IMG/VR virus record: IMGVR_UViG_3300010373_000074
Coordinates: 1 to 43,301 of that record
Length of the DNA stretch: 43,301 bases
Direction: 5' to 3' (one strand)
Source: a virus
The stretch's first letter is position 1, and every line of letters starts with the position of its first letter. Under the pieces are notes generated by a model. The model worked only from the letters and a program-made list of their open reading frames with translations. It had not been told where the DNA came from and did not search any database. Positions 65 through 9,868 of the stretch are shown here, one piece after another. The position numbers and the translations under genes were made by a program.

Positions 65-544
65 GTGGCCCTCGCGCGTTTCTCGGACAGGGGAAGGAAG
101 CCGTCGTCTGCGTCTGACGGTAAGCCGGCCGAACTCAGTAGCCTGCCGTCAGAAATATACTTCGATATCAGCAGATTCCGCGACTTCGCGATCATGCGCG
201 AAAGAGCCCTAGCGGAAATTCTAGGCGCCCCGCATAAGGGTTCCCAGCTTCGTGAATGCATCATCCGCCAAATGATGCTGGCCTTCGCGGGCAACCAAGT
301 TCTGCGCGTGTCTGACTATCAGAGATTGTGCGCGAGATTCGCGAGTCCGCCGGCCATCAGGACCGAAATCGGACGCCTGGAAGGCCGGAAAGTTTTGGTT
401 CTGCAACCCCATCCCGAGGATCGGAGGGCAACGGCGGTATGGCCGACCGAGCGGTCCATTCGATGGTTTAAGGCCAATATCCCTGACCTAAAGAGAAGAC
501 TTTTGCGAATTTTCAATGAGTTAGATAATACGAGTGTGGAGTAA
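65..544 (+). CDS. MarR-like winged-helix DNA-binding protein
   Basis: A 159-residue basic protein starting with GTG at 65, preceded by a strong ribosome binding site (GGGGAGGAA, 51-59). The middle and C-terminal half (about residues 50-140) looks like a MarR-type winged helix: helices, then a recognition stretch (PPAIRTEIGRLEGRKVL) and a wing with charged residues (HPEDRRATAVWPTERS). The wing is followed by a C-terminal helix that could dimerise. MarR-family proteins usually repress nearby promoters as dimers, often with a small ligand. It is separated from the repressor/Cro switch by about 100 bases and runs convergent to the repressor gene. It could be a phage regulator or the last host gene beside a prophage; the sequence does not decide this. 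Family assignment is by motif only. Confidence 0.7.
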   Translation: MALARFSDRGRKPSSASDGKPAELSSLPSEIYFDISRFRDFAIMRERALAEILGAPHKGSQLRECIIRQMMLAFAGNQVLRVSDYQRLCARFASPPAIRTEIGRLEGRKVLVLQPHPEDRRATAVWPTERSIRWFKANIPDLKRRLLRIFNELDNTSVE

Positions 545-643
545 ATCTTTCCTATTCGTATCCCGAACGACGGTTGTATGGTTCCTTACAGCGCTGGTTG
601 CGCGGGAGCCGAGAAGTTATGCCGAGTTGCCGTCCCTGCCGCT

Positions 644-970
644 CTAGACACCCTTGCGAGCCGAAGCCTCAGCAGCATCCAGAGATGGTAGAAGTTCGGC
701 CTCCAATTCTCGCGCCATCCTATGCGGCAGAGCCGACCAGTCCCCCAAAAATACATAGTCAAAGTTAGCCCCCTTGGTGCGGCATAACCGGTACAGGGGA
801 TAAGGTTGGATCGGGTGATTGCCCTGCATCCAATGGTTCAGGACGTGCTTTGACACGTTCATAGGCTCGGCAGCCTCAACATAGCTCATTCCGAGTAGCT
901 TGATGAGCCGCCGCAACCGCTCGCCAGATGCCCTCTGGTGGTCGGCTTGCGTCAAAATAGCGGTTTGCAC
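644..970 (-). CDS. CI-type phage repressor, short HTH protein
   Basis: Reads leftward, divergent from the cro-like gene at 1055. The open frame continues upstream to 1237, but that would run across the cro gene, so a GTG at 970 (another in frame at 979) is the likely start, giving 108 residues. It has an XRE-type helix-turn-helix (SYVEAAEPMNVSKHVLNHWM) followed by a region typical of short alphaproteobacterial phage repressors (GANFDYVFLGDWSALPHRM). It lacks a LexA-like peptidase domain, so SOS self-cleavage is not expected. From the divergent arrangement I infer that it represses the cro promoter at 1020-1047. The start is uncertain because no clear ribosome binding site precedes either GTG; an ATG at 889 is also possible but would cut into the N-terminal helix. 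Confidence 0.72.
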   Translation of the reverse strand: MQTAILTQADHQRASGERLRRLIKLLGMSYVEAAEPMNVSKHVLNHWMQGNHPIQPYPLYRLCRTKGANFDYVFLGDWSALPHRMARELEAELLPSLDAAEASARKGV

Positions 971-1019
971 GGGCAGCACGGTAGGGGTAAGCGCCGCTGC
1001 ACGCGGTAAAATAATGTGC

Positions 1020-1047
1020 TTGCCTAACGGTGAAGCCTCGCTATACT
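1020..1047 (+). promoter_or_regulatory. Promoter of cro-like gene, probably leaderless
   Basis: TTGCCT (1020-1025) and TATACT (1042-1047) are separated by 16 bases and match the sigma70 consensus well. Transcription would start about 7 bases after the -10 element, at or next to the A of the cro ATG (1055). No Shine-Dalgarno sequence lies before that ATG, which fits a leaderless message. An imperfect inverted repeat (GGTAA at 1005-1009, TTGCC at 1020-1024) overlaps the -35 and could be a repressor operator; that last point is inference. Confidence 0.6.
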
Positions 1048-1054
1048 GACACGT

Positions 1055-1282
1055 ATGGGATGCTTCACTCAACCGCAACGGACTCCGCTCGATGCCGTCA
1101 TTGCCGCCGTAGGCAGTGGGGCTGAGCTGGCTCGGCGCCTTGGGGTCAACAAGACAGCCGTTTCGCAATGGCGTCGCCGGGCCATCCCGGTCAACCGCGC
1201 CCGCGAAGTATCCAAGATAAGCGGCATCCCGCTTCACGAGCTGCGCCCCGACGTGTGGACGCCATCGGACGGTGATGCCTGA
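1055..1282 (+). CDS. Cro-like (YdaS-type) HTH regulator
   Basis: 75 residues, ATG at 1055. An XRE/YdaS-type helix-turn-helix lies at about residues 14-50 (GAELARRLGVNKTAVSQWRR, then IPVNRAREVSKISGIPLHEL). The tail LRPDVWTPSDGDA matches the usual end of Cro/YdaS proteins, where HELRPDIWP is a common ending. In such switches Cro represses the repressor promoter and commits the phage to lytic growth. It is divergent from the repressor at 644-970 with an 84-base control region between. There is no ribosome binding site, and a good -10 box sits only 7 bases upstream of the start codon, so translation is probably from a leaderless mRNA. Size and motif both fit the family. Confidence 0.82.
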   Translation: MGCFTQPQRTPLDAVIAAVGSGAELARRLGVNKTAVSQWRRRAIPVNRAREVSKISGIPLHELRPDVWTPSDGDA

Positions 1283-1323
1283 TGCCTAACCCGCACCCTT
1301 TTGAATCGGGGCGGCGGGTGATT

Positions 1324-1414
1324 GCCGCGCGTGGCTCCGCTCGCACTGAGAACGCGCGGCAGGGGGAGCGTAGTCCCGGCCGAATCCGTCAGAGGACACG
1401 GGGACTGCGCTCCC
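1324..1414 (+). ncRNA. Tandem hairpin RNA leader (candidate)
   Basis: Two strong hairpins lie next to each other in the 159-base gap between cro and the gene at 1442. Hairpin 1 pairs 1324-1332 with 1352-1360, nine perfect G/C-rich pairs with a 19-base loop. Hairpin 2 pairs 1364-1377 with 1401-1414, fourteen pairs including one G-U wobble, with a 23-base loop. No run of T follows, so neither is a standard intrinsic terminator. The pair could be an attenuation or antitermination leader, a small RNA, or a protein-binding site at the head of the early operon. The pairing is seen in the sequence; the function is inference. Confidence 0.45.
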
Positions 1415-1441
1415 TTCCCATTTGCAACACAAGGAAACCAA

Positions 1442-1648
1442 ATGTCTCGCGTATTTACGTTGACGATCCGTGGCACGTTGCCGGAAGGCTCTTTTGCCGA
1501 GGCGCGCTCGCTGAGTGCTCTGGAACCTGTCGCAGACGACGTGAAGCAGAAGCTTCTGCTGGCCGGCCTGTCGGATGCGACCGTGGAGAACTCGATTTCC
1601 ACGCCGCGCGGGCCACGCAAGCCGAAGGCGGTTGCCGCAGCGGCGTAA
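1442..1648 (+). CDS. Hypothetical early protein, 68 aa
   Basis: I chose ATG 1442 because it follows AAGGA (1432-1436) with good spacing, although the frame is open further upstream through the two hairpins of the leader. The 68-residue product begins SRVFTLTIRGTLPEGS and ends in an alanine-rich basic tail (RGPRKPKAVAAAA). A beta-strand-like start followed by one helix is all that can be read from it. It is the first gene after the structured leader, so it may depend on whatever that leader does. I do not recognise a family. Codon choice resembles the neighbours, which supports it being real. Confidence 0.6.
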   Translation: MSRVFTLTIRGTLPEGSFAEARSLSALEPVADDVKQKLLLAGLSDATVENSISTPRGPRKPKAVAAAA

Positions 1649-1738
1649 GCGTTTCCAGGGCACTGCCCGGAGCCGGTGAAAGCCCGGCGCTTCTCTTCAC
1701 AACCGGCATTGGTTTGTTTCGCCATCACGGCACTTACA

Positions 1739-2083
1739 ATGTCACAAAACCCTCAGAAAGCACGAAAAATGGCGCCCGCTGTTGAGGTCGCGCAACAGTT
1801 GCGTGGGTGGGTTGTTGACGACATTCGCGCGTGCAGCAACCGAGGCATAGTGAATGCAATCTATGAAGTCGCTCGGCACTACGGGCTAACGCCACGCCGT
1901 GTGCGCGCAATCTACCACGATGAAGTCAAAGCGCCGCTTGCGTGGGAATACCTGCAAGTGCAGCGCAAGAGAGTGGAACGTCTCGCAAGGCTGAATGCCG
2001 AGGCGTCCGAAATCCGGGAACAAATAAAGCAATTGGAGGGGCGGTGTTCCAATGTATCAAATCAACGGTTGCCTTGGTTTTGA
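1739..2083 (+). CDS. Hypothetical protein with HTH-like segment
   Basis: 114 residues from ATG 1739; the frame is open upstream, but this ATG begins the part with protein-like composition. The ribosome binding site is weak. A helix-turn-helix-like stretch (AIYEVARHYGLTPRRVRAIY) lies at about residues 40-60, followed by a charged helix (QRKRVERLARLNAEASEIRE) that could form a coiled coil. This suggests a small DNA-binding protein of the early region, possibly dimeric. The last dozen residues look unstructured. No family is recognised beyond the HTH resemblance. Confidence 0.6.
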   Translation: MSQNPQKARKMAPAVEVAQQLRGWVVDDIRACSNRGIVNAIYEVARHYGLTPRRVRAIYHDEVKAPLAWEYLQVQRKRVERLARLNAEASEIREQIKQLEGRCSNVSNQRLPWF

Positions 2084-2176
2084 CCGGGGCTTTCCAGGCT
2101 GTCGGGCGCAGGTCCACGCGGTTTGCCACGTGGGCAATGGATTGCCGGGATCGCTGGGCGAAGAGGGTCTAGCGTG

Positions 2177-2770
2177 ATGGCTGGGTGTCCTAAAGGCACG
2201 AAGCGATCGGCAGTGACCAAGGCAGCAATTGGCAGCGCGTCGTCTAAGCGATGGGAAAATGCGGAATTCCGTAAGGCGATGACTCCGAAGCTTTCAGCGG
2301 CAGCTAAGGCTCGTTGGAGCCGGGAGCCTCGCGATGAGAATGGCAAGCTAACCAACCCAGCTTTGCGCAAGCACATAGATCGCATCAACCGCCGGAGGAG
2401 CATAGACGATCGCTGGCGCGAGAAGCTGAGCGATGCGGCCCGCCAGTATTGGCAATCGTCTGACAGGCTTATCCGACCCGACGAGAGGATGCTTGCCATC
2501 ATACACGAGAACAACGCCGGACCTGTCGGTATGCAAGCGACCGCCGACACGCTTGGCATCACCGTATCCACGCTGCGCCGTATTCTTCGCGATTACGACA
2601 TCGTTTGGCGGAAATCCAGATCGGCTGCGAAAGTGGCCCCCGAGGTTGGACACCCGTCCAACAACGCAGCGGTAGTCGCTGCGTCCGTGCCTGACGTTTT
2701 CCCTCCCGAAACTGGCGACTCCGATGCTTACGAACCCATCGGGGTCGCCTCTTTTGAGGAGGCCGCATAA
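2177..2770 (+). CDS. DNA-binding protein, NUMOD3-like and HTH motifs
   Basis: 197 residues from ATG 2177 (a GTG at 2174 is also in frame), with GAGGG about 9 bases upstream. The N-terminal third is very basic and contains repeated short helices of the type AAKARWSREPR and WREKLSDAARQYW. These resemble NUMOD3-type DNA-binding modules, which are often found in homing endonucleases, but no GIY-YIG or HNH catalytic motif is present. A helix-turn-helix follows at about residues 115-140 (MQATADTLGITVSTLRRILR). The C-terminal 50 residues are acidic and probably disordered. It lies 2 bases before the GcrA-like gene and is probably in the same transcript. A regulatory role is more likely than nuclease activity. 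Confidence 0.65.
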   Translation: MAGCPKGTKRSAVTKAAIGSASSKRWENAEFRKAMTPKLSAAAKARWSREPRDENGKLTNPALRKHIDRINRRRSIDDRWREKLSDAARQYWQSSDRLIRPDERMLAIIHENNAGPVGMQATADTLGITVSTLRRILRDYDIVWRKSRSAAKVAPEVGHPSNNAAVVAASVPDVFPPETGDSDAYEPIGVASFEEAA

Positions 2771-2772
2771 CG

Positions 2773-3528
2773 ATGCGCGGCGAAGAATGGTCAGAAGAAG
2801 ACATTGTCCGGCTTCGGCAGCTTTGGAACGAGGGTCATTCTGCTGCCGAGATCGGGAGGCGCATCAAGAAGTCCAAGAATGCGGTGATCGGCAAGGTGCG
2901 GCGCATTGGTCTTGTGCACAGACCAAATCCAGTCGCTTGCGGTCGCCCGTTTACCGACGAGGAAAGCGAGATCATCCGAGATGGCGTCGAGTCTGGCCTA
3001 GACGACGATCAAATCGCGGCGCGCCTCACTGACCGGTCTCGCGTGTCTGTGCAGCGCAAGAGATATCGGATGGACCTCCTGCTAAGCGAGGATACCGCCC
3101 GTCGCTTGCAAATGCAGGGCTCAATCAAAAGCGCGGCTAAGGCTCGGGCGAAGCATCGCATCAATCATGCTGCTTCCATCCGGAGGGCTGCTCAGGCTCG
3201 GCAGGAGGCATTCTCTGCCGCCGCTGAACAGGCGAACGGCATTCCTCCGGGTCAATCATCGCAAGCGGTTGTTCCGATGAAACCATTCATGGTCAACGAC
3301 GGCGTGCCCAAGCCGCCGACGTTTCCCGTCCATGCGTTCGATCTGCTTTGTGAGGCCATCCGCAACGACGAGCGGCCGGCGGACGGTTGCCGTTGGCTCG
3401 TGAACGATGGCGGGCCGTGGATGGTGTGCGCCGCCAAGCGTGAACTAGGCGAGAGCTACTGCACGGATCATCTCTCACGTGCCTTTCGGCCATTCGTGGC
3501 GAAACGACAATTGGAGGATGCGGCATGA
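2773..3528 (+). CDS. gcrA: GcrA-family cell-cycle regulator
   Basis: 251 residues. The N-terminus has the GcrA DNA-binding HTH (EEWSEEDIVRLRQLW, then SAAEIGRRI and NAVIGKVRRIGL). The C-terminus has the conserved GcrA ending, with a CRW motif followed by cysteines and a SYC..H..RAF-type stretch (GESYCTDHLSRAFR). In Caulobacter, GcrA binds sigma70-RNA polymerase and stimulates promoters carrying CcrM-methylated GANTC sites. The protein is longer than host GcrA (about 170 residues) because of a second HTH-like repeat (FTDEESEIIRDG, SGLDDDQIAARL) and a basic helix in the middle. It overlaps the next gene by 4 bases (ATGA). A phage copy could redirect host promoters or fire phage promoters at a cell-cycle stage; that is inference. 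Confidence 0.85.
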   Translation: MRGEEWSEEDIVRLRQLWNEGHSAAEIGRRIKKSKNAVIGKVRRIGLVHRPNPVACGRPFTDEESEIIRDGVESGLDDDQIAARLTDRSRVSVQRKRYRMDLLLSEDTARRLQMQGSIKSAAKARAKHRINHAASIRRAAQARQEAFSAAAEQANGIPPGQSSQAVVPMKPFMVNDGVPKPPTFPVHAFDLLCEAIRNDERPADGCRWLVNDGGPWMVCAAKRELGESYCTDHLSRAFRPFVAKRQLEDAA

Positions 3529-3809
3529 ACCGCGACGAACGCCTGGCATCGCTTTTGGAGCGCAACGTGAGGCTAGAGACGGAGCGCAAGGAGCGAAGCG
3601 AAGACATTCGCGAACTTCACAAGGAGGTTGCATCGGCAGGCTACGATCTGCCGGCGTTTCGCTTGGTCGTGAAGCGGGCGATGGAGGCCGACGACAAAAA
3701 ACGCAAGCGCGAGACTGCCGAGCAGATTGCTGAGAGCATGATGGCGGCGTTGGGTGTGCTTGGGGATATGCCGCTCGGTGTTGCCGCGTTAGAGCGCGCG
3801 GTCGCGTGA
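3525..3809 (+). CDS. gapR: GapR-like nucleoid protein (DUF2312)
   Basis: 94 residues starting at ATG 3525, inside the stop of the GcrA-like gene. The arrangement matches the DUF2312/GapR family: a helix (RLASLLERNVRLETERKERS), an EDIRELHKEVASAGYDL core, AFRLVVKRAM, then a final helix (EQIAESMMAALG). GapR is a small alphaproteobacterial protein that binds overtwisted AT-rich DNA ahead of replication and transcription forks and helps gyrase and topoisomerase IV. A phage copy beside a GcrA homologue suggests that the phage manages host chromosome topology and the cell cycle, or protects its own replication forks. The family call is strong by motif; the exact role is inference. Confidence 0.85.
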   Translation: MNRDERLASLLERNVRLETERKERSEDIRELHKEVASAGYDLPAFRLVVKRAMEADDKKRKRETAEQIAESMMAALGVLGDMPLGVAALERAVA

Positions 3810-4288
3810 GTCGTTACGCGCCAGAGCACATGCTGCAAAAGGCGTGTGCGAAGTTCCTCAATCACGCGCTGCCGCCCGATGTCTGGTTTACCGCGATCGA
3901 TCACGCGACACGTAGCGCGACTGAGGGGCAGGACAAGAAGGCGCGTGGCGTAAAGCCGGGGTTGCCCGATCTTATGTTCAAGTTCGACCGACGCACGGTA
4001 TGGATCGAGCTTAAGACCGAGAAATGGCGCCTCCAGGATACGCAGGAAAGCGTTCGCGATATGCTGACGGGCAATGGCGACGACTGGCACGTAGCGCGCT
4101 CCATCGATGACGTAGAGGCCATTCTACGCAGCTATGGGCTGGCCCTACGCGCCACGGCAGGCGGCATCACCGAAAGGCTGCAACAGCGTCTGGAGATGCC
4201 CCGCAAGGCCGGCAAGCCACGCGTCGCCAAGCCGAGTGCTAGCCGCATTCGTCGCACCGAGGCATTGCGGAAGAGGATCGCGTTTTGA
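3806..4288 (+). CDS. VRR-NUC domain nuclease
   Basis: 160 residues from GTG 3806, coupled to the previous gene by a GTGA overlap. Residues about 1-110 form a VRR-NUC domain of the PD-(D/E)XK superfamily: the family G.PDL motif (GVKPGLPDLMF, Asp55), then WIELKTEK with Glu68 and Lys70, and an LQDTQ stretch. All catalytic residues expected for the fold are present. The C-terminal 50 residues are basic and rich in R/K, possibly extra DNA contacts. Phage VRR-NUC proteins are usually grouped with primase and helicase genes and are thought to act as structure-specific nucleases or resolvases during replication and recombination. Confidence 0.88.
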   Translation: MSRYAPEHMLQKACAKFLNHALPPDVWFTAIDHATRSATEGQDKKARGVKPGLPDLMFKFDRRTVWIELKTEKWRLQDTQESVRDMLTGNGDDWHVARSIDDVEAILRSYGLALRATAGGITERLQQRLEMPRKAGKPRVAKPSASRIRRTEALRKRIAF

Positions 4289-4464
4289 GCGCCATCGACA
4301 CAGCGGCGCTGGACGAAGCCGTGCGGCGGTTTCCAGCGCTCCTATCGTTATGCCGAACGACGAATCCTCTGTGCGTGATCGCATGGCCCTTTGACGTGAT
4401 GGAGGCCATCGTTCGCGAATACCGCCTGGTGCTTGCGGAGCGCAACAGGGGGCGTGGGGTGTGA
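4285..4464 (+). CDS. Small hypothetical protein, TTG start
   Basis: 59 residues from TTG 4285, overlapping the TGA of the nuclease gene (TTGA) and ending in a GTGTGA that provides the GTG start of the next gene. The overlaps at both ends copy the pattern of the rest of this operon, which is the main evidence that it is real. The product is one amphipathic helix, a turn with two Cys (LSLCRTTNPLCVIAW), then a second helix (FDVMEAIVREYRLVLAERNR). No family is recognised. Confidence 0.6.
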   Translation: MSAIDTAALDEAVRRFPALLSLCRTTNPLCVIAWPFDVMEAIVREYRLVLAERNRGRGV

Positions 4465-4661
4465 TCCAGCGCCGCGACGATCCCGCAGACGCCCTATGCC
4501 TCCAGTGTGGCATGTGGTGGCCTCCAGGCCACGAATGCACTCACGACGTAACCGCGCCATGCAGCAAGTGCAGCGGTCCCGTAGGGCTACGTTGTTTCGC
4601 GTCGAAAGACGGAATTTGCTGGCGGTGCAGCTCGGGCATTCCGTTGCGGGCGCCGTTGTGA
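4461..4661 (+). CDS. Small zinc-ribbon-like protein
   Basis: 66 residues from GTG 4461, coupled to both neighbours by 4-base overlaps. It carries seven cysteines and two histidines in pairs (CLQC, HEC, CSKC, C, CWRC), a pattern expected for one or two structural zinc sites. Aromatic residues (MWWPPGH) sit between the first two pairs. Such mini zinc proteins are common in phage replication operons and may bind nucleic acid or a host enzyme. No specific family is recognised. Confidence 0.68.
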   Translation: MIQRRDDPADALCLQCGMWWPPGHECTHDVTAPCSKCSGPVGLRCFASKDGICWRCSSGIPLRAPL

Positions 4662-4861
4662 TCGTTGAACCGCCATACGAAGTGCGGCAGCGCGCGTGGG
4701 AACGCGCCTATGTTCTGCGGCAGGAATTCGATGAGTTCCTATTGATGGAGCAGCGCATACGCGCCGAAGTCGTAATCCAGACCGGACCTGAGCATCTTGG
4801 CTGGAACGAGATTGGCGAGATGGCTTGCCTCTACTCGGCTATTGCCGGGGCGCGCGTATGA
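4658..4861 (+). CDS. Small hypothetical helical protein
   Basis: 67 residues from GTG 4658, which overlaps the stop of the preceding gene (GTGA); the end overlaps the ATG of the primase-helicase gene. The frame is open upstream as well, but the overlap pattern of this operon favours GTG 4658. The protein is largely helical and charged (EVRQRAWERAYVLRQEFDEF), with a second helix at the end (LGWNEIGEMACLYSAIAG). Its place directly before the primase-helicase suggests a role in replication, possibly as a loading or accessory factor; this is inference only. Confidence 0.6.
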   Translation: MIVEPPYEVRQRAWERAYVLRQEFDEFLLMEQRIRAEVVIQTGPEHLGWNEIGEMACLYSAIAGARV

Positions 4862-7017
4862 TGTCTGCAACCGGATCGAATGGAACGCCTCACGAGGCCG
4901 TCCCAAATTATGTCAGTTCCCTAAGGGCTAGGCTGTGGGACGCGGGCTTTCGACCAGTCGCAATCTATAATTGGGACTTGGAATGGATAAGTCCGGACAA
5001 TCGCGGGAAACAGCCGAAAGGCAACGCGTGGCGCGAGCGTGCTCTACGCGACCCGCCAGAGGCAACAACAGCGAGCGTCGATCCCAATGCCGTTAACACT
5101 GGCATACTCTCCGATGGCTTGCGGGCTATCGACATTGATATCGACAATCCGACGCTCGCCCATACAGTAAAATCGATGGCGCTTAGCCGATTCGGTGAAG
5201 CACCCATGCGCTACCGGGACAATTCACCGCGCGTGCTACTTCTTTATCGCGCCGAAACCGGGCAGCCGCCAAAGCTTCTGATCACGTCCACACTCGGAAA
5301 GGTCGAAATTCTCGGGGCCGGTCAGCAATTCGTAGCGTTCGGGACACATAAAACCGGAGCACCGCTCCAATGGATGCCAGAGGCGCCCGGAGAAGCCTCC
5401 GCTGATACACTACCGGCGATATCCGAGGCGGACGTTCAGGCGTTCCTAGAGGACGCCTCGCGCGTCTTGGGCGCCAAGGCGCCGGGACCAGCCGCCGCTG
5501 GCGCCGTAGCCTCTCCACGCGGGCTTGGAGCCGATCCTTTACAGGTCGTCGCGGCGCTCGTCGCCATCCCGAACAATGGCCCTCCAGATTGGGAATACTG
5601 GAATCGTATCGGCATGGCGGCGTGGGCTGCCACCGGCGGGTCTGCCGCAGGGCGGGCAGCCTGGCATGCGTGGTCCCAGCAGAACCCGGCCTATGATCCA
5701 GCGGCAGCGGACGAGCGCTGGAACCATTATGCCATCTCTCCACCCAGCAGGATCGGCGCCGGAACACTCTTCCACCTAGCTCGCGAGGCCGAGCCTGCGG
5801 TTGCCGACGATCCTACCCCGGACCCCGAAACAACCGATCCAGGTTGGTGGGAATCGCTGGAGCGGCGGTTTGAAGACGGCGTAAGTGGTGAAATCGACGA
5901 ACCTCCGCAGACCTCCGCGACCTCCGCAGAAGCCAAAACGAGTTCGGTCATCGACCCGCGCGACTGGACGGCGCCGGCTCCGCTGCGTCAGTGGCTCGTA
6001 CAGGACTGGATACCAATTGGCTACGTGACGGGGCTGTACGGCGATGGTGGCCTAGGAAAATCCCTGTTGGCGCAGCAGCTCATGACCAGCGTCGCTTGCG
6101 CTCTTCCTTGGCTGGGAATGGACGTGAAGGGCGGAAAGTCTTTCGGCTTCATGTGTGAAGACGATCCGGATGAATTGCATCGCAGGCAGGAGTCCATAAA
6201 CGGAGCCTATGGCCTACAAATGCGTCACCTGGAGAATCTAAGATATTCTAGTAGGGTAGGTGCAGACAACTTATTAATGACATTTGACGAACGCAATCGT
6301 GGCAATCCGACAGAACTCTTTAGGAACCTTGCGAAATATCTTTCGGACTATCGGCCGAAGTTGGTCGTTATAGACACTCTAGCTGATACGTTCGGAGGAG
6401 ATGAAATCAAAAGGGCTCACGCTAGGCTTTTCATACAGGGGATATGCGGCAATTTAGCACGAGAATACGAATGCGCTGTTGTCATATGCGCCCATCCTTC
6501 TGCGGCTGGTATATCTTCTGGGTCGGGTACTGGCGGCTCCACAGCATGGTCAAATACATTCCGTTCTCGCCTTTACCTACAGGCTCAGAAAGAGCAGCCG
6601 GACGGGCGTGTCCTTTCGCGAATGAAGGCCAATTATGCCCCCGCTAATGCGGAGTTGAGTCTGGAATGGCGCGACGGATGTTTCATGCCGAAGACATCGG
6701 CCGCACGTCTTCCGGCCATCCAGTGGAATGATATTCAGGTCATATTCGCAGAGATTGTAAGGGGCTGGCATGCTGGTGAGCCCTGGTCCAACTCCCCGCA
6801 GACGAAGCGAATCGGCCGTTATCTACCTCTCTGGGCACAGGTCCATCTCGGCATCCAAGAGCGCGTGGTAGCCAAATTTATCGATGAGTGGCTTGCCGGT
6901 GGCTACCTGAAATCGGCTGTTTTCGATGCCCACCGTAAAGTCTTCGGGCTCAAGGTAGTCCGCCATCTACAACCGCCGGTTGGTGATGCGGAGCTTGCGG
7001 AGGTTCCGAATTCATGA
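4858..7017 (+). CDS. Primase-polymerase / RecA-fold helicase fusion
   Basis: 719 residues from ATG 4858 (ATGA overlap). The N-terminal 220 residues are a prim-pol domain: the metal-binding run Asp92-Ile-Asp94-Ile-Asp96 follows NTGILSDG, and GKVEILGAGQQFVAFG fits its second motif. A PriCT-like module follows (W.YWNRIGMAAWAATGG to LFHLARE). After a Pro/Thr-rich linker comes a RecA/RepA-like ATPase with Walker A GDGGLGKS (Lys401) and Walker B LVVIDTLADTF (Asp506), then a HPS motif and a C-terminal winged-helix-like part. It should prime and unwind phage DNA. No separate DNA polymerase gene is seen, so the phage probably uses the host replicase. The stretch at about 6230-6640 is visibly more AT-rich than the flanks, suggesting that the ATPase part came from another source. 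Confidence 0.88.
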   Translation: MMSATGSNGTPHEAVPNYVSSLRARLWDAGFRPVAIYNWDLEWISPDNRGKQPKGNAWRERALRDPPEATTASVDPNAVNTGILSDGLRAIDIDIDNPTLAHTVKSMALSRFGEAPMRYRDNSPRVLLLYRAETGQPPKLLITSTLGKVEILGAGQQFVAFGTHKTGAPLQWMPEAPGEASADTLPAISEADVQAFLEDASRVLGAKAPGPAAAGAVASPRGLGADPLQVVAALVAIPNNGPPDWEYWNRIGMAAWAATGGSAAGRAAWHAWSQQNPAYDPAAADERWNHYAISPPSRIGAGTLFHLAREAEPAVADDPTPDPETTDPGWWESLERRFEDGVSGEIDEPPQTSATSAEAKTSSVIDPRDWTAPAPLRQWLVQDWIPIGYVTGLYGDGGLGKSLLAQQLMTSVACALPWLGMDVKGGKSFGFMCEDDPDELHRRQESINGAYGLQMRHLENLRYSSRVGADNLLMTFDERNRGNPTELFRNLAKYLSDYRPKLVVIDTLADTFGGDEIKRAHARLFIQGICGNLAREYECAVVICAHPSAAGISSGSGTGGSTAWSNTFRSRLYLQAQKEQPDGRVLSRMKANYAPANAELSLEWRDGCFMPKTSAARLPAIQWNDIQVIFAEIVRGWHAGEPWSNSPQTKRIGRYLPLWAQVHLGIQERVVAKFIDEWLAGGYLKSAVFDAHRKVFGLKVVRHLQPPVGDAELAEVPNS
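5901..5929 (+). repeat. Three direct repeats ACCTCCGCAG in helicase linker
   Basis: Copies at 5901-5910, 5911-5919 (last base differs) and 5920-5929 are in tandem. They encode part of the Pro/Thr/Ser-rich linker between primase and ATPase domains. The same word in reverse (CTGCGGAGGT) recurs around 6995-7199, just after the gene. They may be protein-binding sites or only a low-complexity linker. Confidence 0.6.
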
Positions 7018-9018: not shown

Positions 9019-9224
9019 AGATTCTAGATATTTGCGCCATGCCGACATGCGTAGACGCCAATGCGTTTCCTTTGGGGCCAAGCAAGTTCCATGAGTCCCT
9101 TTTTCGCTCATACCACATATTGGCTAAGGCCAAAGAATTGCTGGGATGTGGAGTTCCGCCTGGAGTCGTGCTTGATCTAGTCGGTGAAATGGAATCTGCG
9201 CAGCTTGGTGGTGATAACACTTGA
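9015..9224 (+). CDS. Hypothetical protein, 69 aa
   Basis: Starts at GTG 9015 (GTGA overlap) and ends in TTGA, which supplies the TTG start of the NusG-like gene. The N-terminus looks like a strand with two Cys (KILDICAMPTCVDANAF), followed by two helices (HESLFRSYHILAKAKELLGC, PPGVVLDLVGEME). It is translationally linked to the NusG-like factor. No family is recognised. Confidence 0.6.
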   Translation: MKILDICAMPTCVDANAFPLGPSKFHESLFRSYHILAKAKELLGCGVPPGVVLDLVGEMESAQLGGDNT

Positions 9225-9868
9225 CAACGCACGCCCAATTGCAATATGAACCGGGATACGGACCAGGGGTCACGCTGCCAATGACCTATTGCGCCCGCAG
9301 CATGGATAACGACCATGCGTCGCGTAGCGTTGACTCCCGCTGGTTCGTCATTTCCACCTATCCGCAGGCCGAGTTCCAAGTATGGGCAGCGCTGGGCAAG
9401 TTCCGCCGGCACCTTCCGACGATCGTGACGTATCGGCAGAAAATGCGGCATGGTCGGCCCGTTTTCACCAATGGCCAACGGCTTGCGGAACCGGTTATCC
9501 GCCCGTTCTTCCCCGGTTATCTGTTTGTGTCGCTGGACCTGACCGACCCGAGTTGGGCATCTATCGGGCGCACTCAGGGGGTGAAGCGGCTTATGTGCAG
9601 TACGGAATTGCGCCCTCTGCCGGTCCCTATCGGTGTAGTTGAGGCGCTGATGGCTCAAGGGCGTGCTGGCGATGGTGCGATTGATCCGGGTGCCGCTCCG
9701 CAGTTCGCACCACTCGTGCCAGGTCAGCGGGTGCGTGTGACAGTGAACGGCACGGACCTCGATACGCTGGTCCATATGGCCGAGCGGGATCGCGTGTGGG
9801 TGCTGCTGCGGATGTTTGATCGTGACGTGCCGACTGAGGTTCCGCGTGGTGCGGTGAGGGCGTTGTGA
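9221..9868 (+). CDS. NusG/RfaH-like transcription antiterminator
   Basis: 215 residues from TTG 9221. After a 38-residue leader comes an NGN-type domain: the opening strand SRWFVISTYPQAEFQVW, a basic middle with YRQKMRHGRPVF, then FFPGYLFVSLDL, SWASIGRTQGVKRLM and the helix IGVVEALMAQ. A C-terminal KOW-like barrel begins at FAPLVPGQRVRVTV. NusG family members ride on RNA polymerase; specialised copies such as RfaH suppress pausing and termination in single long operons. Here it lies just upstream of the late virion genes, and no lambda Q-like gene is seen. It is therefore a good candidate for the late-gene activator, acting by antitermination. The domain call is firm; the late-operon role is inference. 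Confidence 0.85.
   Translation: MTTHAQLQYEPGYGPGVTLPMTYCARSMDNDHASRSVDSRWFVISTYPQAEFQVWAALGKFRRHLPTIVTYRQKMRHGRPVFTNGQRLAEPVIRPFFPGYLFVSLDLTDPSWASIGRTQGVKRLMCSTELRPLPVPIGVVEALMAQGRAGDGAIDPGAAPQFAPLVPGQRVRVTVNGTDLDTLVHMAERDRVWVLLRMFDRDVPTEVPRGAVRAL

Follow-up and report, generated by a model that had tools for sequence, protein, structure and literature searches.

GcrA binds region 2 of sigma through its C-terminal domain, and the Caulobacter crescentus protein combines one DNA-binding domain with an unstructured linker, according to the accessible part of a review (PMC7403470). Among phage proteins, gp222 of phiCbK is a known GcrA homologue (available portion of PMC3556154), and phage GcrA has so far been taken for a duplicate of the host's own regulator. 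GapR in Erythrobacter phages is termed a first in the accessible text of PMC12185513, and the cargo of phiLM21-like prophages includes GcrA and a COG3750 (UPF0335) protein according to a partly available account (PMC12429752). CtrA is a known route of alphaproteobacterial phages' interest in the host cycle, and GcrA sites display no positional asymmetry in any phage subset (both from the available part of PMC9437464). Searches of open-licence PubMed Central texts, in their accessible portions, turned up no description of overlapping GcrA and GapR genes or of a phage GcrA with several HTHs.

Here, we analyzed IMG/VR record IMGVR_UViG_3300010373_000074 over its full length of 43,301 bases (hereafter, the window). 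The nearest matches of its terminase are Rhizobium phages (59% identity) and its portal protein is P22-like; therefore, an alphaproteobacterial host is likely and one from the Hyphomicrobiales probable. The sole close relative is an IMG/VR contig, IMGVR_UViG_3300037466_001282 (locus L004). A tyrosine integrase is present in the L004 record and in Rhizobium phage RHph_Y25; no match to one was obtained in the window, which may be a fragment. As originally predicted, the window contains two ORFs of 251 aa (2773-3528) and 94 aa (3525-3809) which share four bases, ATGA, at positions 3525-3528.

Domains of the GcrA-family protein

The first ORF (2773..3528, plus strand) encodes a GcrA-family protein for which PF07750 and an AlphaFold2 model (mean pLDDT 74.5, pTM 0.35) predict two HTHs, a helical linker and a C-terminal CCCH domain. 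It matched PF07750 with 73.6 bits (cut-off 26.9) in three stretches of one frame, and the solved GcrA 7ye1 by sequence with an E value of 2.6e-8. The second ORF (3525..3809, plus strand) encodes a GapR-family protein, which scored 39.8 bits against PF10073 (cut-off 22.6) and matched GapR chains in the PDB with E values from 1.4e-6 (6cfy) to 2.1e-4. The domain search proposed along with the GcrA assignment thus bears it out, as does PF10073 for the GapR assignment, and since both scores lie above curated Pfam cut-offs chance is ruled out as the source of the matches. The NCBIfam equivalog cut-offs were not reached either for GcrA (NF050816, 48.9 bits, cut-off 280) or for GapR (NF052541, 30.1 bits, cut-off 140). 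Because they lie above the Pfam cut-offs and far under the equivalog cut-offs, the two proteins are, judged by sequence, family members and not host orthologues. The GcrA-family protein is over-long, as had been pointed out, with 251 aa compared to 146-239 aa in bacterial GcrA ORFs (77 ORFs from 80 loci, lengths counted from the first possible start).

The N-terminal unit, HTH1 (aa 5-50; 2785..2922, plus strand; recognition part SKNAVIGKVRRIGL), corresponds to the canonical GcrA DNA-binding domain by structure match and conserved residues. Its helices are predicted at 8-19, 24-31 and 35-45, in a block with pLDDT mostly above 90. The GcrA DNA-binding domain was its top structural match, with 40-43% identity (PDB 5yiu, Z 9.2, rmsd 1.8 over 47; 5yiv, Z 8.8, rmsd 0.9 over 44); the PDB rows of the structure searches were mostly Myb/HTH domains, and the absence of other families there excludes none. 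HTH1 contains NAVIGKV and retains 10 of the 14 strongly conserved recognition-part residues of bacterial GcrA. HTH2 (aa 60-105; 2950..3087, plus strand) is a divergent second unit covered by the second PF07750 stretch (E 4.6e-5), with helices predicted at 62-73, 78-87 and 90-114 (pLDDT about 71-83) and five of the 14 residues retained. The second HTH suspected in the original prediction is supported as a real unit by a weak match to our own HTH profile, built without the window (E 0.003), by the predicted three-helix fold and by a conservation in L004 (28/46 identical) that exceeds that of HTH1 (17/46).

A long helix (118-155) is predicted between HTH2 and the C-terminal domain (aa 203-240; 3379..3492, plus strand), which would correspond to GcrA's sigma-interacting domain; it is covered by the third PF07750 stretch (E 5.9e-4) and folded around 205-240 in the model. 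Its alignment with solved GcrA is weak (8.2 bits; 5.6 bits with a two-sequence profile). Residues C206, C219, C230 and H233 are invariant across 22 and 19 aligned GcrA proteins, and this C-C-C-H quartet would be structural or zinc-binding. Quartet and PWMVC motif are both retained in the window and L004 while other parts of the protein drift. The window protein shares with Caulobacter GcrA (5yiu, 5yiv, 7ye1) the N-terminal HTH fold, the recognition part and the C-terminal C-C-C-H domain, but differs from it in having two HTHs and a linker predicted to be helical and long. Akin to the window protein, phiCbK gp222 is a phage-borne PF07750 protein (89.1 bits), but it has 182 aa and one matched stretch. 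The GcrA of Brevundimonas phage Bajun (ON529858, BAJUN_00520) does have two HTHs and a C-terminal domain; however, it is followed by a 1.4-kb hypothetical gene. Neither the phiCbK nor the Bajun genome has a PF10073 match.

The GapR-family partner and the early gene run

The partner shares PF10073 with Caulobacter GapR and with phage GapR (DUF2312) proteins, but differs from them by its 94 aa, a short insertion, a C-terminal tail and scores far below the equivalog cut-off. By eye, four of the eight GapR DNA-contact positions (residue list from PMC7498317) are basic in the window protein, namely R21, R29, R46 and K50, and the counterparts of GapR K49, K56, K60 and K66 are not.

Preceded by a Cro-like gene and followed by replication genes, the pair belongs to a run read rightward, on the plus strand. 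At its head lies a Cro/YdaS-like regulator (1055..1282; PF15943 46.4 bits, PF14549 33.8 bits), followed by a 68-aa protein of no known family (1442..1648), a small HTH-like protein (1739..2083; weak Pfam HTH match below cut-off) and, upstream of the GcrA-like gene, a protein with a weak HTH match (2177..2770; HTH_23 E 0.011, below cut-off). A GGAGG at 3513-3517 is placed 7 bases 5' of the GapR-like start. The GapR-like gene in turn overlaps by GTGA with a VRR-NUC nuclease gene (3806..4288; PF08774 28.0 bits, cut-off 23.8), and a primase-polymerase/AAA replication protein is encoded downstream (4858..7017; PF13481, PF08707, PF09250). Owing to this layout, the genes from 1055 rightward would form a single early operon.

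L004 has the overlapping GcrA-GapR pair, the leader hairpin described below and the NusG-like gene as in the window, but another gene in the place of VRR-NUC. Its GcrA differs in having three predicted HTHs (9-45, 81-117 and 138-175) where the window has two; the best structural row of its model was 5yiu (Z 7.9). Among the six genes compared, the 68-aa protein is the best conserved (93% identity); the gene at 1739 is 80% identical, GapR 68% and GcrA 42%, the C-terminal domain of the latter being identical in 17 of 38 positions. Most of the recognition part is lost from the L004 HTHs, which retain three, four and four of the 14 strongly conserved residues. At least two phages therefore preserve GcrA and GapR side by side. 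Directly upstream of the L004 GcrA gene, positions 3503-4123 encode three tandem GcrA/Myb-like HTHs without the C-terminal domain (by eye).

From what was computed, that is the families, the predicted HTH folds, the overlapping reading frames, the preservation of both genes in L004 and their repeated proximity in other phages described below, we lean, by a modest degree, towards the following reading. In this P22-like phage, probably of an alphaproteobacterium, the pair would be an early, translationally coupled unit of a sigma70-tethered activator, whose HTH array has been re-addressed, and a supercoil-binding clamp. The C-terminal domain of the GcrA-like protein would hold host RNA polymerase via sigma region 2, and the tandem HTH array, with two units here and three in L004, would pick promoters. 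Its address would have changed and its grip on the polymerase been retained, because the L004 GcrA drifts fast and little of the recognition part is left in its HTHs while the pair is kept. The GapR-like protein would clamp overtwisted DNA and so aid topoisomerases during phage replication and strong transcription. Since it has gained a second DNA-binding unit, the GcrA-like protein probably steers host RNA polymerase to new places and is not a plain copy of the host regulator. Sigma binding, DNA targets, topoisomerase help and the joint purpose of the pair are what we infer here, with phage promoters appearing likelier targets than host ones; a sigma-tethered activator of changed address with a topology clamp is, in our view, the most economical mechanism. 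Against this reading stand the weak alignment of the C-terminal domain with solved GcrA, the four of eight GapR contact positions that are not basic, the many phages bearing one gene alone, and the sighting of a tandem-HTH GcrA with overlapping GapR in two contigs only.

Alternatively, the GcrA-like protein could serve a phage control circuit only, as a GcrA-type HTH repressor or activator of the phage's own operons whose C-terminal domain no longer binds sigma. HTH or HTH-like proteins do stand in series at 1055, 1739, 2177 and 2773 (those at 1739 and 2177 scoring below cut-off), the gene directly upstream of GcrA in L004 has three more GcrA-like HTHs, and HTH-only relatives adjoin GapR in other contigs. 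However, such a circuit does not sit well with a C-terminal quartet and PWMVC motif kept in both phages, and we are inclined to doubt it.

GcrA and GapR genes in other phages

The distribution of the two genes was analyzed in viral contigs drawn by similarity, namely the best 80 of 170 confirmed loci for GapR and 80 of 108 for GcrA; frequencies in these sets are not those of all phages. PF07750 was matched at E<=0.01 in 27 of the GapR-picked contigs (23 above cut-off), leaving 53 of 80 without GcrA. In these 27 contigs, the two genes lie less than 1 kb apart in 13 cases and less than 3 kb apart in 20, where uniform placement would give 3.5 and 8.0, and they are on the same strand in 23. After clustering at 80% GapR identity, 12 of 22 pairs are within 1 kb (2.2 expected) and 19 of 22 within 3 kb (6.1 expected). 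Because early genes cluster, a null of uniform placement is not fully adequate; a test confined to the 21 clustered pairs within 6 kb corrects for this in part, and there 12 were within 1 kb compared to 4.3 expected (simulated P 2.5e-4). The GcrA-GapR neighbourhood is hence not a fluke, and the two genes have a wider tendency to sit near each other.

From the GcrA side, PF10073 was matched at E<=0.01 in 13 of 78 contigs (11 above cut-off), 65 lacking GapR; the 78 are the set of 80 minus two already in the GapR set. None of six GcrA-bearing annotated phages tested had PF10073, and PF07750 was absent in three alphaproteobacterial phages tested (nearest by terminase; two GapR-bearing). A strict GcrA-GapR module as a general rule is rejected, since in the majority of phages bearing either gene its partner is absent. 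Of the module proposed originally, the part that stands is that the genes keep company (20/27 within 3 kb, 8.0 expected), and the part that falls is a fixed two-gene module. A phage GapR query matched 155 of 50,697 annotated phage records, and a phage GcrA query matched 25; because of the former count, the "first" in the accessible text of PMC12185513 concerns a widespread gene.

The same counts bear on a reading without any joint purpose, in which two early-region genes were separately acquired and touch by happenstance. Most phages having one gene without the other would agree with this, as would phiCbK, where GcrA is followed by a gene with a match to DNA polymerase A, and a clustering of early genes is to be expected anyway. 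Yet the overlap is retained in L004 in spite of heavy divergence and proximity exceeds chance even inside 6 kb, so that we hold happenstance to be a rather improbable account.

To place the two HTHs of the window, CTD-bearing ORFs were scanned with a single profile, whose counts are lower bounds (it found one of the three predicted HTHs of L004 and missed the extra ones of contig L065). By this count the window protein has two HTHs, and one HTH was found in 80 of 80 bacterial ORFs, in 75 of 80 ORFs from GcrA-picked viral contigs (none in 5), in 22 of 23 from GapR-picked contigs (none in 1) and in four of five from annotated phages, the fifth being the two-HTH protein of phage Bajun. By eye, L065 contains neighbouring ORFs at 2183-3352 and 3277-4287 with three and two GcrA-like HTHs, respectively, the first also having the GcrA C-terminal domain. 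Among the 50,697 annotated phages, neither the window GcrA nor its HTH2 had a close relative, and a search of bacterial genomes with A1 peptide patterns gave no relatives. When viral sequences were scanned with HTH2, the sole hits were the L004 record and a small HTH protein that adjoins a terminase and is unrelated. Tandem-HTH GcrA with overlapping GapR was seen in two contigs only. In the control genome of Sulfolobus acidocaldarius, an archaeon, PF07750 also gave matches above its cut-off.

GANTC sites and the leader hairpin

GANTC sites had been noted at 1081, 1303 and 1382, with the caution that their number might be due to chance. The sites are present and the caution was right: the region 540-3810 contains 7 sites compared to 7.9 at the window's own density. 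The whole window is depleted, with 105 sites compared to 177.3 expected from dinucleotide shuffles, and an enrichment in the phage control region is rejected. Nor does depletion set GcrA phages apart, since it is general: in a comparison of sets, observed/expected was 0.63 in the window, 0.38 in both GapR-only and GapR+GcrA contigs, and 0.45 both at bacterial gcrA loci and in GcrA-picked contigs. Region 540-4900 gave a single promoter-like site (1020-1047), a yield not above that of shuffles, and this site lacks GANTC.

Sites 1303 and 1382 are preserved in the L004 leader; site 1081 is not. The GAATC of 1382 is located in the invariant apical part of a conserved leader RNA hairpin (1363..1415, plus strand, in the stretch 1355-1419), and this hairpin is a rival reason for its conservation. 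The stem comprises 15-16 bp, the apical part is identical in L004, two stem pairs are changed on both sides, and the fold z is -2.6 in the window and -3.4 in L004. Rfam gave no match in the window, and among 32 sources from roughly 300 loci copies of the hairpin were found only in the window and L004 (with the overlapping L298).

Takeover of the host cycle, as originally suggested, is possible: phage GcrA would read methylated GANTC at host promoters and force or hold a DNA-replicating state, and GapR would support the forks. HTH1 with its NAVIGKV and 10 of 14 recognition-part residues fits this, and the proposal resembles one made for phiCbK gp222 in the available part of PMC3556154. The methyl marks would have to be host-made, since no PF01555 methyltransferase was found in the window or L004 records. 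However, L004 has the pair with most of the recognition part gone, the window is GANTC-depleted, as are other loci, both phage and bacterial, that carry these genes, conservation is higher in HTH2 than in HTH1 and the protein scores far below the GcrA equivalog cut-off; we therefore consider takeover unlikely. As a conserved function of the GcrA-like protein, the reading of methyl-GANTC in particular is not supported: it appears unlikely because the L004 HTHs keep little of the GcrA recognition helix (3-4 of 14 residues compared to 10 in HTH1 of the window), GANTC is not enriched in the phage region and the promoter-like site is without it.

Returning to the sigma-tethered activator with its topology clamp, the extra HTHs, the coupling to GapR and the L004 HTHs devoid of most recognition residues suggest that GcrA serves phages as a scaffold which binds sigma and on which DNA readers can be exchanged. 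This bears on how sigma-activators of the GcrA class find promoters and on whether the class depends on reading methylation. More speculatively, and with low confidence, phage GcrA in general could be a readdressable sigma70 guide, in which a fixed C-terminal grip and a fast-changing HTH array form one translational unit with a supercoil clamp. New promoter addresses would then arise as HTH units are added or altered, and the clamp would suit the same templates as the guide. If true, the pair would make up, together with the leader hairpin and the NusG-like protein, a phage transcription takeover kit covering initiation, topology and elongation. Hairpin and NusG-like protein could be a LoaP-like antitermination pair.

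The NusG/RfaH-like protein of the window is encoded at 9221-9868 (PF02357, 52.8 bits). Its gene is also present in the L004 record, and four of the 28 records tested have one.
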